Source of the DNA: Thiomicrorhabdus xiamenensis
Lineage (GTDB): Bacteria > Pseudomonadota > Gammaproteobacteria > Thiomicrospirales > Thiomicrospiraceae
Reading direction: 5' to 3'
Assembly: GCF_013282625.1 (NCBI RefSeq)
Contig: NZ_CP054020.1
Span: forward strand, 1,178,001 to 1,242,000
Length of the DNA: 64,000 nt
Below, piece by piece: positions 234 through 56,802 of this stretch; position 1 is the first letter of the stretch, and each line of letters begins with the position of its first letter. The position numbers and the translations under genes are program-made. The notes under the pieces were generated by a model that saw nothing but the letters and a program-made list of their open reading frames with translations, was not told the origin of the DNA and did no database searches.

Positions 234-694
234 GTTTACTCCTTTTTTAGTTTTTAAGCATAACTATTATTAGACATCCTAATACTTATAAAAAGTGTAT
301 TTGAAGCAGTAATAAAACTGCCGTTTTATATCCGTATTTAGGATGTGTTTGCTGTGAAAATTATTTGATTTATAACGGGTTATGGGATTTAGGTGCGATT
401 TTATTTGACCTAAATAGCATTGCCGTAAATCTGTAAACTGCATCCATAATAGTTTTTTAAGTGGATTAAATCCAGTACTTAATGGGTTATTTAGTTAGGC
501 TGAATGCGCATTTAGAATGGTTTCATGAGTCAGTTGATCGGCCAGTTGATTTTGCTTGTTGGCGGTATGGCCGCAAATCTGCCCGATGATGCTGATTGCG
601 CTCTTTCCCCTTGCGTTTGCGTCTTGGTTATTTCGACATAGAACCGTATAGAAGGGCATCAACGCTTTTTACAAAAGGGGGGGGCTGTCTTTTG
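234..694. other. AT-rich intergenic stretch containing an rnhA remnant
   Basis: Between the truncated secreted-protein gene and the DUF4260 gene there is no intact gene. The left part (250-490) is strongly AT-rich and presumably holds the promoter of the secreted-protein gene. The right part contains the 3' end of a second RNase HI gene (495-572), then about 120 bases I cannot assign. A run of eight or nine G residues occurs near 678. I see no tRNA, insertion-sequence end or recombinase gene here. Confidence 0.6.
495..572 (-). pseudogene. Remnant of a second RNase HI gene (C-terminal end only)
   Basis: Read on the minus strand this encodes the last 25 residues of an RNase HI, starting at the GHTANKQNQLADQL motif and ending in its own TAA. 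The first 14 residues are identical to the C-terminal region of the intact rnhA at 3751-4257. At DNA level 511-572 matches 3770-3831 at about 52 of 62 positions, and most differences inside the shared motif are silent. Homology stops abruptly upstream of the GHTAN motif, so the N-terminal catalytic part (Asp, Glu, Asp) is absent and no protein is expected. The largely silent divergence suggests the fragment descends from a functional relative of rnhA rather than from a recent copy. See findings for the possibility that it marks one edge of an insertion. Confidence 0.8.
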
Positions 695-695
695 T

Positions 696-1079
696 TCAAG
701 TATCTCTTTTGGAACCGATTTTCCCCAAATGAGTGTCGGTAAAACCACTGCCATACTTCAAGCCATAACCTAAGGCGCGGTCAAAACCTATGTGTGCAAA
801 ACAGATAAGGGCCATGGAAATGGCTAAATCAGCATCGCTTAGCAGTCCTGAGGCTAGCAACAGGGCCGGTCCAATCATCGAGTGGGTCGTGTTGTATAAG
901 ATTGCCCCGAATTTGGAATTGAATACATAGCCTAAAAAAGCTAAATCCGGCACCAGAAACAGCCAGGCAAACAGTATCCAGTCTGCGCTGTACTGATGGA
1001 AAATCAGCGCCGAGAGCAGCAGAATCGATAAGCCTTCAAGTCGTAAAACGGTTCTTAAATTTCCTGTTACAAAAGACAT
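696..1079 (-). CDS. DUF4260 family small membrane protein
   Basis: The 127-residue product matches the DUF4260 pattern. It has LRLEGL at 12-17, PDLAFLGY at 44-51, the signature HIGFDRALGYGLKY at 96-109 and DTHLG at 115-119. Three to four hydrophobic segments (about 15-30, 33-50, 66-80, 84-98) place it in the inner membrane. No biochemical role is established for this family. The length is normal, so the gene looks intact. The ribosome site upstream of the ATG is weak, but no better in-frame start exists. It stands alone on the minus strand between the rnhA remnant and the divergently transcribed lipoprotein gene, in a segment that looks accessory. Confidence 0.85.
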   Translation of the reverse strand: MSFVTGNLRTVLRLEGLSILLLSALIFHQYSADWILFAWLFLVPDLAFLGYVFNSKFGAILYNTTHSMIGPALLLASGLLSDADLAISMALICFAHIGFDRALGYGLKYGSGFTDTHLGKIGSKRDT

Positions 1080-1172
1080 TGGTTTTTCTTTTGGAAAAGT
1101 TGATTTTCTCTTTTTCCTTCAAATGAAAATGCTTAGTTGCAAGCATAAAATTACTTGAAATATATCATTTAA

Positions 1173-1200
1173 TTAAAACATGAGTGGATTTTTGTATAAT
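1173..1200 (+). promoter_or_regulatory. Candidate sigma70 promoter for the lipoprotein-protease pair
   Basis: A perfect TATAAT at 1195-1200 is preceded at 16 bases by TTAAAA (1173-1178), a poor -35 element. Transcription would begin near 1207, about 40 bases before the GTG start at 1246. The region is AT-rich, so a chance match is possible. Confidence 0.45.
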
Positions 1201-1245
1201 TTATTTCGGCTATAAAAAATTAATAGGCAAATAAAAGGAATTATT

Positions 1246-2034
1246 GTGATTAAACGAACAGCCCCATTTCTATTAACTTCAACTTTACTGACCGCCTGTG
1301 GTGGTGGTGGCGGTGGCGGCGGTGATTCAACCGACGACAATCAAATCATTTCTGGCGGCACAATCGAGCCGACATTCAATTTGACGGATTATCGTTATAT
1401 GCCAGAATCAAGTGGTGTGGCATACACTTACACGGTTGACGGATATGTTGATATTAACGGGATTTCTTCTCCGGCATCTATGATGCGATCAGTTGAAGCC
1501 TCTGAGCCATTAAATGTTAAAGATACGCCGTGGATGCGAACTGTCCGCACCGACTGGACGATTGACAGCAACGGTCAGACAGCCACACAAAGCGACGAGA
1601 AAATTGTCTTTGTGAATAAAACGACCGGCAAGATCGCTTCACTGACAGACCAGTTTTCTTATAAAGCAGGATCGTCAGAACAATACATTCCGGCTGATAG
1701 TTTGGATAAGGTTATGACGCACAACCCAATGCCTGCTACAGCGAACTATGGCGACGGTGGAACGCTTTTAATCAACCCAACACTACTTGGGTACACAACA
1801 ACGGTTACATGGTCACTAATCGACTCTGGTGTTGAATCCGAAGCGATTCTTCAATTCGACACGCAGACAGTTGATGACAACGGACTAACCGTTTTTACAG
1901 AACAGCAAAAGCTGACGATCAATGAGAGCGGAACACTGCTTTCAGTCGAAACATCAGGCACTTCTGAGGTGGTCGGAAATGTCTCTTCCGGAACGGCGAT
2001 GACGGTTGCATGGCAACTATCTGGACAGCAATAA
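1246..2034 (+). CDS. Putative secreted lipoprotein with polyglycine tether
   Basis: This 262-residue protein has a lipoprotein signal: basic N-terminus (IKR), hydrophobic core, and lipobox L-T-A-C ending at Cys18. Eight glycines follow immediately, a usual flexible tether in surface or periplasmic lipoproteins. The rest is Thr/Ser/Gly-rich and beta-strand-like, with no domain I recognise. The start is GTG at 1246, supported by AAAAGGA about seven bases upstream; no ATG fits before the lipobox. The gene ends 23 bases before the subtilisin-like protease start, so the two are almost certainly cotranscribed and may work together, for example as substrate, anchor, chaperone or inhibitor. That partnership is inference. 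Function unknown. Confidence 0.8.
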   Translation: MIKRTAPFLLTSTLLTACGGGGGGGGDSTDDNQIISGGTIEPTFNLTDYRYMPESSGVAYTYTVDGYVDINGISSPASMMRSVEASEPLNVKDTPWMRTVRTDWTIDSNGQTATQSDEKIVFVNKTTGKIASLTDQFSYKAGSSEQYIPADSLDKVMTHNPMPATANYGDGGTLLINPTLLGYTTTVTWSLIDSGVESEAILQFDTQTVDDNGLTVFTEQQKLTINESGTLLSVETSGTSEVVGNVSSGTAMTVAWQLSGQQ

Positions 2035-2057
2035 CAAGGCGAATAAGGAGAAAGGAT

Positions 2058-3617
2058 ATGAAAAAGACTATTTTAGCACTAGCAATCGCGGCAATCGCAT
2101 CACCCGTTATTGCAGGATCAGACATGCCGACCCCTGTAAAAGCGCAGGCGGCTTCTGCTCCTAAAGCACAAAACTTGGAATCAGATATTTCACTAACCAC
2201 GCTGAACGTGAAATTCCATGAAGCGCCGACAGAAGAGCAGATTCAAGCGGTGCTTGACGTAGCGGGTGCGACCGTTAAATCGAATCATTCACGATTCAAG
2301 ATGATTACAATTGAATTCGACGGCAACCCTGACGAAATCAAAACGGCAATCGAAACCCTGCCTTTTGTAAAACAGGTTATGTTCGATAAGGCGATTAAAT
2401 CGCAAGCTTTGACAACTACAGCCCTACCAGAAGAAGACTTGTTTTCTCAAATGTGGAACTGGCATAACGGCGGCGGATTTATTGAATCGACCGACCGACC
2501 AAACGACACCAACCCTTACCTATACGTGAACGGTGTTGACTTGGGGGCGCTTGAAGCACGACGCCTGCTTGAAGATCGCGTAAACAGCATGGAAGACATT
2601 ATCATCGCTGTATTTGACTCAGGCGTGAATTATAACGATCCCGCGTTAAAAGATATGATGTGGGTTAATGCTGACGAAATTCCTGATAACGGAATTGATG
2701 ATGACGGTGATTCATACATCGACAACATTTATGGAATCGCACCAAACAAAACAGTATCAGGCGATCCGATCGCAACAACCTCAACACATGGAACGCAAGT
2801 GGCTGGCGTTATCTGCGAAAAGATCAATAATGCCTATGCAGGTGCAGGTTTAACCCCACGATGCAAAATCATGGCAATCAATATTGAAGACGATAACGGA
2901 ATTCAGTGGGAAAACGCGACTATTAGCGGCATTGACTTTGTTTTGAACGAGGGGGTGAAGATCTCTAATTTCAGCAATAGCATGTCTGGTTCTGCGGATG
3001 AAACGTTAATGGCCTCTTATGATGCCTTTGTTGCGCTAAAAGACGGCGGGCATCTGGTTGTTGCGGCTTCTGGGAACGATTCCCAAAGCATCGACGACAC
3101 CCCTTTGTATCCAGCCTCTTATTCTATGGATAACGTCATCACGGTAAACGGTATCACTGGCACAGGGGGTCGCGCCACCTATTCAAATTACGGGGCCATT
3201 TCGACGGACATTGCCGCTCCAACAAACGGCATTGTGACGACTTCATTCACCAGTGACGGAAGTGTATTAACCCCTGTGGAAAGCACCTCGTTCAACGGCA
3301 CCTCTGCGGCCACTCCGGAAGTGGCGGCAGTGGCCGCGGCGCTTTGGTCACTTTCACCTAGCCTAACCTACACCCAAGTACGCGATTATGTCTTAAACAA
3401 TGCTCAAGTTATTCCGAATTACACGGATGTTCGTGACATTGAGGACGGCGGTTCAGTGCTTGAGAACGTTACGCTATCATCGACAGGTGGAATGCTGGAC
3501 TTTACCGCGTCGGTTAAAGCTCTGATCGCTGATATTGAGGGGAATTCAACAAAACTTGGTGTACCAGCCAACAAAGTTTTTGAATCCCTGAATTTCGGGT
3601 CGGCACATACGCCTTAA
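2058..3617 (+). CDS. Secreted subtilisin-like serine protease (S8 family)
   Basis: A 519-residue exported serine protease. The ATG at 2058 follows AAGGAGAAAGG and begins a Sec signal peptide (hydrophobic 5-18, cleavage after about Ala19). An upstream in-frame ATG at 2010 lies inside the lipoprotein gene and is less likely. Residues about 45-115 form a propeptide-like alpha/beta region of the inhibitor I9 type. The catalytic triad is visible: Asp187 in VFDSG, His244 in THGT, Ser416 in NGTSAATP, with the oxyanion Asn340 in ASGN. The segment at 211-226 (NGIDDDGDSYIDN) is typical of calcium-binding S8 proteases. A terminator follows at once. All active-site residues are intact, so activity is expected; the substrate is unknown, and the paired upstream lipoprotein is an obvious candidate partner. 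Confidence 0.93.
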   Translation: MKKTILALAIAAIASPVIAGSDMPTPVKAQAASAPKAQNLESDISLTTLNVKFHEAPTEEQIQAVLDVAGATVKSNHSRFKMITIEFDGNPDEIKTAIETLPFVKQVMFDKAIKSQALTTTALPEEDLFSQMWNWHNGGGFIESTDRPNDTNPYLYVNGVDLGALEARRLLEDRVNSMEDIIIAVFDSGVNYNDPALKDMMWVNADEIPDNGIDDDGDSYIDNIYGIAPNKTVSGDPIATTSTHGTQVAGVICEKINNAYAGAGLTPRCKIMAINIEDDNGIQWENATISGIDFVLNEGVKISNFSNSMSGSADETLMASYDAFVALKDGGHLVVAASGNDSQSIDDTPLYPASYSMDNVITVNGITGTGGRATYSNYGAISTDIAAPTNGIVTTSFTSDGSVLTPVESTSFNGTSAATPEVAAVAAALWSLSPSLTYTQVRDYVLNNAQVIPNYTDVRDIEDGGSVLENVTLSSTGGMLDFTASVKALIADIEGNSTKLGVPANKVFESLNFGSAHTP

Positions 3618-3631
3618 ACCATCAAAACGAA

Positions 3632-3655
3632 AACCGGTGCAATGCCGGTTTTTTT
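3632..3655 (+). terminator. Rho-independent terminator after the protease gene
   Basis: AACCGG and CCGGTT form a stem around a short loop, followed by seven T residues. It lies 15 bases after the protease stop codon and closes the lipoprotein-protease unit. Confidence 0.85.
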
Positions 3656-3750
3656 AATAAAAAATAATAAGAAAGCTCCATTTTGTAAAAAGATAATGGC
3701 ACTAATTTCATTTTCGGGGGGAACAATATAAATATAATTTTTATATTCGA

Positions 3751-4257
3751 TTAACTGGAAATTTGGCTTTTTAGAATGTTTTCTCTAGCGAGTTGATCGG
3801 CAAGCTGGTTTTGTTTGTTGGCGGTATGGCCTTTGATCCAGTAAAAATCGACGGGGGCGTTTTGTGCTAGAGAGTAGAGTTGTTGCCAGAGTTCGGCATA
3901 CACGACTGGGTTGCCGTTGGCCGAATGCCAGTTGTTTTCCTGCCATTTCGGGTATTTATCAAACAGGCCTTCAAGTAGAATCTGTGCGTCGGTGAAAAGG
4001 GCGATCGGGCTGTCGGGGTGTTGCTGTAGTTGCCACTGTAATGCCTTAATCGCTGCGATCAGTTCCATTTCCAGGCTGGAATGGGAAATCTGTACGCCAG
4101 AAAGGCTGTCGATGAGCTGTCCGGTTTTGTTATAGATGGCGAAACCCCAGCCGCCGAGCTGGCATTGCTTGAAGTAGGCTCCGTCGCTATAAAGTTGAAA
4201 TTCATATTCGGATTGCGGTTCGCGCAAAGCATAGGGGGTGTGCTGCCGGAAATCCAA
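3751..4257 (-). CDS. rnhA: Ribonuclease HI
   Basis: RNase HI cleaves the RNA strand of RNA-DNA hybrids (primers, R-loops). The 168-residue product carries the DEDD active site: Asp25 (YSDGA), Glu65 (MELIAAI), Asp90 (FTDAQ) and Asp154 (QLADQLA), with the catalytic-loop His144 in GHTANK. The start is TTG at 4257, eight bases after a TAAGG ribosome site that overlaps the stop of the DUF1841 gene. No ATG is available before the first catalytic residue. It is the last gene of the nth-DUF1841-rnhA run. A diverged copy of its 3' end sits at 495-572, about 3.2 kb away on the same strand. Many RNase HI proteins are 150-155 residues, so the length is ordinary. Confidence 0.9.
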   Translation of the reverse strand: MDFRQHTPYALREPQSEYEFQLYSDGAYFKQCQLGGWGFAIYNKTGQLIDSLSGVQISHSSLEMELIAAIKALQWQLQQHPDSPIALFTDAQILLEGLFDKYPKWQENNWHSANGNPVVYAELWQQLYSLAQNAPVDFYWIKGHTANKQNQLADQLARENILKSQISS

Positions 4258-6702: not shown

Positions 6703-7467
6703 CTATTTGATAGCGATCTTAATGCCGAGGTCGTTCTGCAGTTTGGCGGCTTTTTTCTGGTCGATATAGTTTTTGGCCGCGATCAGCAGACCCAGTCCGA
6801 TAAAAGCTCCCGGCGGCAGAATTGCCAGCAGAACACCTTGATAGTCGTCGCTGAAGGTGATGGTCCAGTTGCTTGCTGTTTCTCCGAACATCAAATAGGC
6901 CTGATCAAAAAGGGTTCCGGAACCGATAATCTCGCGCAAGGCGCCCAGCAGCACCAGAACCACCAAAAAGCCCAGTCCCATAAAGAAACCGTCAACGATG
7001 GCTTTATCGACGCTGTTTTTCGAGGCATAGGCTTCGGCGCGACCGAGAATCGCACAGTTGGTCACGATCAGGGGGATAAAGATGCCCAGTATGCCGTGTA
7101 AGGTATGGAAATACGCGTTCATCAGCAGGTCGATCATGGTGACGGCCGTCGCGATAATGGCGATATACACCGGAATACGGATTTCATCGGAGACGTGACT
7201 GCGAATCAGGGAAACCAGCGTATTGGAAACCAGTAATACCGCCAGCGTTGCCAGCCCGAGCCCCAAACCGTTAACGGCGTTGTTGGATACTGCCAGCAGC
7301 GGACACAGACCCAGCAGGGCGACCATGGCCTGGTTGTTCTGCCACAGGCCGTTGAGCATAATCTTTTTGTATTCGGCTTTTTTTGCCTGCCAGACGCTCG
7401 GCGTTGTTTCAATGGCATCGGCGGCGGTAGAATTCGGAGTATCCGCCAGAGTATTGGTATCAGTCAT
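6703..7467 (-). CDS. rnfE: Rnf electron transport complex subunit E
   Basis: Membrane subunit of the Rnf complex, which couples electron flow between ferredoxin and NAD to ion movement across the inner membrane (called Rsx in E. coli). At 254 residues it has about 25 extra polar N-terminal residues, then six hydrophobic segments. Family hallmarks are [18 protein letters not shown] and the loop [14 protein letters not shown]. The start overlaps the rnfG stop by 8 bases. It is the last gene of rnfABCDGE and converges on the sialidase-like gene with one base between stops; no terminator is visible there. Confidence 0.95.
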
Positions 7468-8125: not shown

Positions 8126-9187
8126 CTATCGCTTATGTCCGAACACGCGCGGCTGGGTGTACTGGTCGATCAGAGGAACAGCGATATTCATCAGCAGTAT
8201 GGCAAAAGCCAATCCATCGGGGAAAGTTCCCCAGGAACGGATGACATACACCAGAACGCCGATACCGCAGGCGTAGATAAAGCGTCCGACAGGGGTTGTG
8301 CTGGCGGAGACCGGGTCGGTAATGATGAAAAATGCCGCCAGCATGGTTCCACCGCTCAACAGAACAAAGCTTGCCGGCGGGTACATTTCCGGGTTATAGC
8401 CGTGGAAAATCCACGCCATCAGAAACAGCGAACCTAAAAAACCGACCGGAAACTGCCAGCGGATAGTACGTTTATACAGCAGATAGATGCCGCCGACCAG
8501 AAAGGCGATATTGATCCAGGCCCAACTGTTCAGGCCGAGCCAGTAATGGGTTTGGCTGGTATGGCCGGCGATCGGAGCCAGTGTATCGGCAACGGTTACC
8601 CCTTGAGCGATACCGATACGCATTTCGTTCAGCGGCGTCGCACCGGTGAGCATGTCAAAATCGGCCGAACTTAAAGCACCGGTGAAAATGACCTGAACCG
8701 CATCCATAAAGCCGAGGTAGTGACCACTGATTTCTGACGGCATAATCCAGGTGGTCATCTGCACCGGGAAAGAGATAATCAAGAAAGCGTAACCGAGCAT
8801 TGCCGGGTTAAACGGGTTGTAACCCAGCCCGCCATAGATGTGTTTTCCGAAGATCAGCGCAAAGGCCGAGCCGGTGACAACCACCCACCAGGGAGCCGTG
8901 GGCGGAATACAGAACACCAGACCGGTGACGGTAATCAGCGCGCTGAGATCGGTTAGAAATGGCATGACCGGACGGCCACGCAGTTTGAGCATGCTGTATT
9001 CAACGACCAGGTAGGTAACGACCGCCAGCAGCCATTGAACGACAATACCGAAACCGAACAGGTAGATGTGCATCAGCAGTGCCGGCATGGCAGCGAGCTG
9101 AACCTGCAGCATCACCTTGCGCACGGTCTGATCGTTGTGCGCATAAGGTGAGGAAGGGGGGATAGGCATGCTTGCCGGATTCATCAA
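8126..9187 (-). CDS. rnfD: Rnf complex subunit D, covalent flavoprotein
   Basis: Integral membrane subunit of Rnf, related to NqrB, 353 residues with multiple transmembrane helices. It carries the second covalent FMN site, TGATPL at 181-186 with Thr184, and the family signature GYNPFNPAMLGY at 122-133. The start overlaps the rnfC stop by four bases (ATGA), showing translational coupling. Together with RnfG it is thought to carry electrons across the membrane. Confidence 0.95.
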   Translation of the reverse strand: MMNPASMPIPPSSPYAHNDQTVRKVMLQVQLAAMPALLMHIYLFGFGIVVQWLLAVVTYLVVEYSMLKLRGRPVMPFLTDLSALITVTGLVFCIPPTAPWWVVVTGSAFALIFGKHIYGGLGYNPFNPAMLGYAFLIISFPVQMTTWIMPSEISGHYLGFMDAVQVIFTGALSSADFDMLTGATPLNEMRIGIAQGVTVADTLAPIAGHTSQTHYWLGLNSWAWINIAFLVGGIYLLYKRTIRWQFPVGFLGSLFLMAWIFHGYNPEMYPPASFVLLSGGTMLAAFFIITDPVSASTTPVGRFIYACGIGVLVYVIRSWGTFPDGLAFAILLMNIAVPLIDQYTQPRVFGHKR

Positions 9188-56145: not shown

Positions 56146-56802
56146 ATGAGCTGGTTGAAGAAAAAAATTGCACAGCATCGCCGGGAGCGCAACCGACGCA
56201 GCCTTAAGGATTCAACGTACCAGTTTCTCTTCGACGAAACGAAAGAGGAATATGTCTGTTTTGATTGTGAAACAACCGGGCTGAATCCAGCCAAGGATCG
56301 CATCGTTTCTCTGAGTGCGGTCAGAATTTCGGGAGATCGCATTCTGACCAGTCAGGGAATTAATTTTCTAGTCGCGCAAACCGATTCGATCAGCGAAGAA
56401 AGTATCAAGGTGCACCAAATCCGTAATCAGGATCTGCAACAGCAACAGGGCAGTCTGTTGAGCGAAGAGGAAGCGGTCAGGCGTTTTCTGCATTTTATCC
56501 GTGGCGCAACTCTGGTCGGTTACTATCTGGAATTTGATGTTGCTATGGTCAATCGCATCTTAAAACAATGGTTGGGGATTGAATTGCCGAATCCAAGGAT
56601 TGAGGTTTCCGAGCTATATTATGACTTGCGCGCTAAAGAACATTTGTATGGGGTCTATCAGCCGGCAGTGGATTTGTCTTTCGAGGAAATTCTCAAGCAT
56701 TTGCAGTTACCGAATTTCGGACAGCATAACGCCTTTAATGATGCGCTGATGACGGCACTGATTTTTGTTAAGCTGCGCAAATTGCAGCAAACATCGTTCT
56801 AA
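56146..56802 (+). CDS. DnaQ-like 3'-5' exonuclease (DEDDh)
   Basis: A 218-residue exonuclease of the DnaQ/RNase T superfamily. The DEDDh residues are visible: Asp40 and Glu42 (FDCETTGLN), Asp131 (YLEFDVAMV), His194 and Asp199 (HNAFNDA). It lacks the extra helicase- or polymerase-binding parts of DnaQ, so it is not clearly the replicative proofreader. Starts 12 bases after the CNB-CBS-DUF294 gene behind AGAGGCGAG, so the pair is cotranscribed. In related genomes it is often found with that gene near actP; the functional link is unknown. Confidence 0.9.
   Translation: MSWLKKKIAQHRRERNRRSLKDSTYQFLFDETKEEYVCFDCETTGLNPAKDRIVSLSAVRISGDRILTSQGINFLVAQTDSISEESIKVHQIRNQDLQQQQGSLLSEEEAVRRFLHFIRGATLVGYYLEFDVAMVNRILKQWLGIELPNPRIEVSELYYDLRAKEHLYGVYQPAVDLSFEEILKHLQLPNFGQHNAFNDALMTALIFVKLRKLQQTSF

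Follow-up and report, generated by a model that had tools for sequence, protein, structure and literature searches.

Gene content of the locus

We analyzed a stretch of 64,000 nucleotides (the window, G000:C1:1178001-1242000) from the complete 2.59-Mb genome of Thiomicrorhabdus xiamenensis, comparing it with the closest relative in our set, Thiomicrorhabdus sp. 6S3-12 (G026); coordinates prefixed L045 and L046 belong to the loci of these two genomes, respectively (Table 1). The minus strand carries two 3' ends of an RNase HI gene, one belonging to an intact rnhA and the other to a remnant, R3', with its own stop codon. Both ends had been described in the first-pass annotation, and the description holds: the frame of R3' closes with a stop at 495, and a recount of window 511-572 against 3770-3831, the end of the intact gene, again gives 52/62 identical bases (BLAST E = 8e-12, with the set of loci as search space). 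Compared as protein, R3' has a 72% match to rnhA residues 140-164 (E = 2.1e-4, whole genome searched). The rnhA of the window is the second RNase HI gene of this genome, the canonical one lying at G000:C1:1557192-1557596; it is the more divergent of the two (94 vs 172 bits to PF00075), and genes of its type stand near DUF1841 and nth in the nine relatives examined.

The duplicated end had been taken to be that of rnhA only. The rnhA end is real, but it is directly adjoined by a second gene end, that of an ABC-2 permease (P3'). When the DNA of the segment was searched against its own genome, the sole place matched besides the segment itself was G000:C1:1177019-1177083, to which a 65-bp core of P3' has an 85% match (E = 7e-13); the alignment runs ungapped through to the permease stop codon, at window 649-651. 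The parent permease, P, is intact at L045:7981-9102 (ABC-2 permease, PF12698, E = 2e-39) and is the final gene of an HlyD-ABC-permease-permease run, with its stop codon 898 bp left of the window. Along this run (L045:3279-9103 against L046) the two species share 69-89% identity, rising to 94-96% from about L045:7758, which suggests recombination inside the operon.

Table 1. Features of the rnhA-permease locus (window coordinates unless prefixed)
Feature	Position	Strand	Remarks
First gene cassette of array	1-233, continues to window -276	-	Array ends at permease, window -898
attI site and flank	262-377 (core 262-282)	-	21/21 core identity in four genomes
R3'	495-572	-	Second rnhA copy, 3' end, last ~25 codons, truncated at junction; also in 6S3-12
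P3'	567-651	+	3' end of ABC-2 permease gene to stop codon, 5'-truncated; 64/85 ungapped to L045:9018-9102
Junction word TGGCC	568-572		Common to rnhA (3827-3831) and permease (L045:9019-9023), by alignment with both parents
DUF4260 protein	696-1079	-	PF14079, E = 2e-39; same place in 6S3-12, 90% aa
Lipoprotein-like ORF	1246-2034	+	No Pfam match; absent at same place in 6S3-12
Secreted subtilase	2058-3617	+	Peptidase_S8, PF00082, E = 2e-38; absent at same place in 6S3-12
R, intact second RNase HI gene, parent of R3'	3751-4257	-	PF00075, 94.6 bits; 95% aa in 6S3-12
6S3-12 array genes	L046:7263-8249 and 8361-8939; ORF beside attI about 6890-7250	+ (first two)	

The two remnants meet at TGGCC: the permease match begins at 567/568, just where the rnhA match stops (572). 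R3' reads left and P3' reads right, both lacking their 5' parts and both keeping the orientation of the parent, and the present order is P, region 1, the rnhA end joined to the P end, region 2, and rnhA. Over the best-matching stretches the two pieces are equally diverged from their parents, at 10/62 positions for R3' and 10/65 for P3'. The arrangement has the form of a tandem-duplication scar, in which an inner joint unites the 3' parts of the right and left genes and the parents stand whole at the edges. An intact tandem duplication would have the intervening sequence twice; here, regions 1 and 2 share nothing detectable beyond the gene ends.

Contents of the two intergenic regions

Region 1, which spans from the permease stop (L045:9102) to R3', contains two minus-strand ORFs with an attC site behind each. 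One attC site, at L045:9625-9723, scores 52.8 bits and the other, at L045:9154-9205, 26 bits; these scores show only likeness to the other sites because both were picked by eye and are in the training set of the model, whose structure was set by hand. The 21-base core of the attI site, TTAGGATGTCTAATAATAGTT, is identical in T. xiamenensis, 6S3-12 and the genomes G014 and G009, and its flank matches at 74% over 119 bp with G014 and at 77% over 69 bp with the attI of G009. In G009 this attI heads an array and lies upstream of an intact intI, at a distance of roughly 130-155 bp; that intI scores 474.8 bits against TIGR02249, for which the cut-off is 265 bits. The genomes of T. xiamenensis and 6S3-12 gave no TIGR02249 match over the cut-off, the best reaching about 76 bits. 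Of the parts of a complete integron, the locus thus has an attI adjoining the first cassette and lacks the intI gene; with two attC sites in L045, it falls into the class of CALINs (at least two attC, no intI).

The genes of region 2 had been described as accessory only (DUF4260, a lipoprotein, a secreted protease) and as including no integrase. The domain search of these genes agrees on both counts (Table 1), and neither a recombinase nor an integrase was found among the region 2 genes of T. xiamenensis or 6S3-12, so that region 2 does not qualify as a site-specific element. The subtilase has no close relative in the genus, the best strong matches being 32-37% identical. Besides DUF4260, region 2 of 6S3-12 holds an ORF of 128 aa that matches no Pfam family, and a NYN-LOTUS protein; homology between the two species breaks off a little upstream of where DUF4260 starts, near window 1090, and restarts at 3773, in the last rnhA codons. 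No attC site was found in region 2; with E = 1 as the limit, the window yields a single site, weak (16.9 bits) and far off, at 56723-56773. We also considered DUF4260 as a fossil cassette, which is unproven: a hairpin-like stretch behind it (40 bp in 6S3-12) is without the TAACAA...GTTA marks common to all 14 collected attC sites (14/14).

Distribution among relatives

On the right side of the locus, T. xiamenensis and 6S3-12 share 95% identity in the core over 19 kb, and 6S3-12 has the orthologous scar together with DUF4260, but other genes replace the lipoprotein and subtilase, which occur at this place only in T. xiamenensis among the genomes compared. The rnhA 3'-end duplication is therefore not confined to one species, but neither remnant has a match in the 30 other genomes of the genus (32 in total), among which so short a remnant could escape in a distant genome. 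In G014 about 260 bp separate an intact rnhA (72% aa) from the attI core, and 119 bp of attI flank are homologous; we found no P end and no remnant there, this permease having no copy beside rnhA. The bases immediately flanking the rnhA stop gave no confident match between the remnant and G014 (p about 0.1). From the rnhA-attI arrangement of G014 we infer that the remnant side is the older neighbourhood of the rnhA end.

The first-pass annotation proposed that a segment had inserted at the rnhA 3' end, and expected some relatives to lack both segment and remnant. Neither was found in G014, but 6S3-12 keeps the remnant without the lipoprotein and subtilase. Presence of the lipoprotein-protease segment in all relatives, which would have spoken against that proposal, is not what we observed, 6S3-12 having other genes between the two ends and G014 none of this kind. 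Over 85 bp, P3' differs from P by about 25%, compared with 8% between the P3' copies of the two species and 9.5% between their P genes. Judged by these distances, the putative duplication clearly predates the divergence of T. xiamenensis and 6S3-12, and the short pieces permit nothing finer.

Origin of the remnant

We consider it probable (roughly 80%) from these comparisons that the remnant is half of a scar left when an interval containing an integron cassette array was duplicated in tandem long ago. In the common ancestor with 6S3-12, a cassette array with attI would have lain between P on the plus strand and rnhA on the minus strand. Illegitimate recombination between two TGGCC copies, near the P end and near the rnhA end, possibly by unequal exchange between sister chromosomes, would have doubled the interval from P end through array and attI to rnhA end in tandem, leaving the parent genes whole at the outer edges and joining two truncated ends at a new inner junction. 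The two intergenic regions would later have diverged, region 1 retaining attI and cassettes, and region 2 losing attI and attC and being filled or replaced, with DUF4260 and then either the lipoprotein-subtilase pair (T. xiamenensis) or a NYN/LOTUS gene and another gene (6S3-12). The duplication event and this divergence we infer from the order, orientation, junction and present contents of the parts. Because only the gene ends remain double, the locus is an old scar and not an intact duplication, and the scar is without visible function of its own.

Tandem duplication is favoured because two neighbouring gene ends are doubled, in parental orientations and in the predicted order, and because the remnants meet at a 5-bp word found in both parents. 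The equal divergence of remnants from parents, the orthologous scar in 6S3-12, and the proximity in G014 of rnhA to an attI whose flank adjoins the remnant here argue in the same direction. Three points count against it. As no attC was found in region 2 and the regions share no other detectable sequence, the duplicated array must have been lost; the flank of the rnhA stop has no confident counterpart in G014; and the intermediate state, P beside rnhA with no scar, occurs in none of the genomes searched. An old duplication had been named earlier as the alternative to insertion, and it proves the better reading, in a more exact form that specifies two gene ends, their orientation and their order.

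The same order and junction would result if the interval from P end to rnhA end had been excised at TGGCC as a circle, from a sister chromosome or within a related cell, and reintegrated by homologous recombination. Sequence alone cannot separate this route from tandem duplication, but it needs two events instead of one, and searches found neither a plasmid resembling the segment nor the exact junction in a viral contig; we regard it as improbable. Less probable still is the insertion, site-specific or other, of a 3.2-kb segment at the rnhA 3' end that brought along a foreign rnhA end. Its accessory character stands, as the content between the rnhA ends varies among relatives (it differs in 6S3-12, and G014 has no such genes), but the foreign end does not. 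Insertion accounts for the rnhA piece only and does not predict a remnant fused to the neighbouring permease end in parental orientation; no recombinase is present among the interval genes here or in 6S3-12; and the exchanged content and the repeat have different limits, the shared DUF4260 lying inside. That a foreign end replaced or restored the original is further disfavoured because the older neighbourhood, namely the attI flank, has stayed with the remnant and not with the intact rnhA, and because the latter matches 6S3-12 as far as its final codons. That the similarity arose by chance, or that 495-662, with its open frame of 55 codons, is a functional short gene, can be set aside almost entirely: the two pieces have E values near 1e-11 and 1e-12 and, for the short gene, there are two in-frame TGA stops in the permease piece of 6S3-12.

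A joint of this kind is an already known, ordinary type of event, and it is the history that is unusually legible here. Like tandem duplications between short homologies in bacteria, the locus has a novel joint between two same-strand sites with a short shared word (PMC3411829). It differs in that the joint is old (present in two species), one array copy has been replaced, and the 5-bp word is shorter than the verified joints in Salmonella, which have 11 bp or more (PMC3411829). For a remnant that resembles an island boundary, it is the second, neighbouring gene end that exposes the tandem duplication behind it, and the duplication would have made two variable regions from one cassette region, with separate contents in two species.

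An attI-bearing array without an integrase

The locus also suggests that an array bearing an attI has lost its integrase. It shares with CALINs, attC clusters without an integrase (PMC8618304), its attC cassettes and the lack of a recognisable intI genome-wide, but unlike them it retains an attI (core 21/21) beside the first cassette, and it has only two attC sites. With the chromosomal integron of G009 it has the attI sequence and cassettes with attC in common; there an intact intI stands beside attI, whereas here the scar with the rnhA end occupies that position.

The stretch in which the array contents of T. xiamenensis and 6S3-12 differ has the attI core and an attC core as its exact limits; past the attC core the two species have the last cassette in common at 94%. 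It is conceivable, though we think it rather doubtful, that the attI beside rnhA may serve as a platform that operates without its own integrase, its cassettes being exchanged by an integrase acting in trans or transiently present. Pointing to this are three species that are without intI in cis but have differing cassettes beside attI, and the exchange from attI core to attC core. Later or independent losses of intI, or deletions made by the integrase from a longer array before its loss, would explain the same facts.

We found no paper on integrons in Thiomicrorhabdus in the literature searched. Twelve of the 32 Thiomicrorhabdus genomes encode integron integrases over the TIGR02249 cut-off. 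At loci L055-L064, the region upstream of nine integrases other than that of G009 was inspected and the G009 attI core was not detected, so there seem to be at least two kinds of integron in the genus. The part of the 6S3-12 array that lies between attI and the last shared cassette encodes a ThsB-like TIR protein (a weak match, E about 1e-4) together with a caspase-domain protein and an ion-channel protein, which may form a Thoeris-like defence set carried by the integron array.
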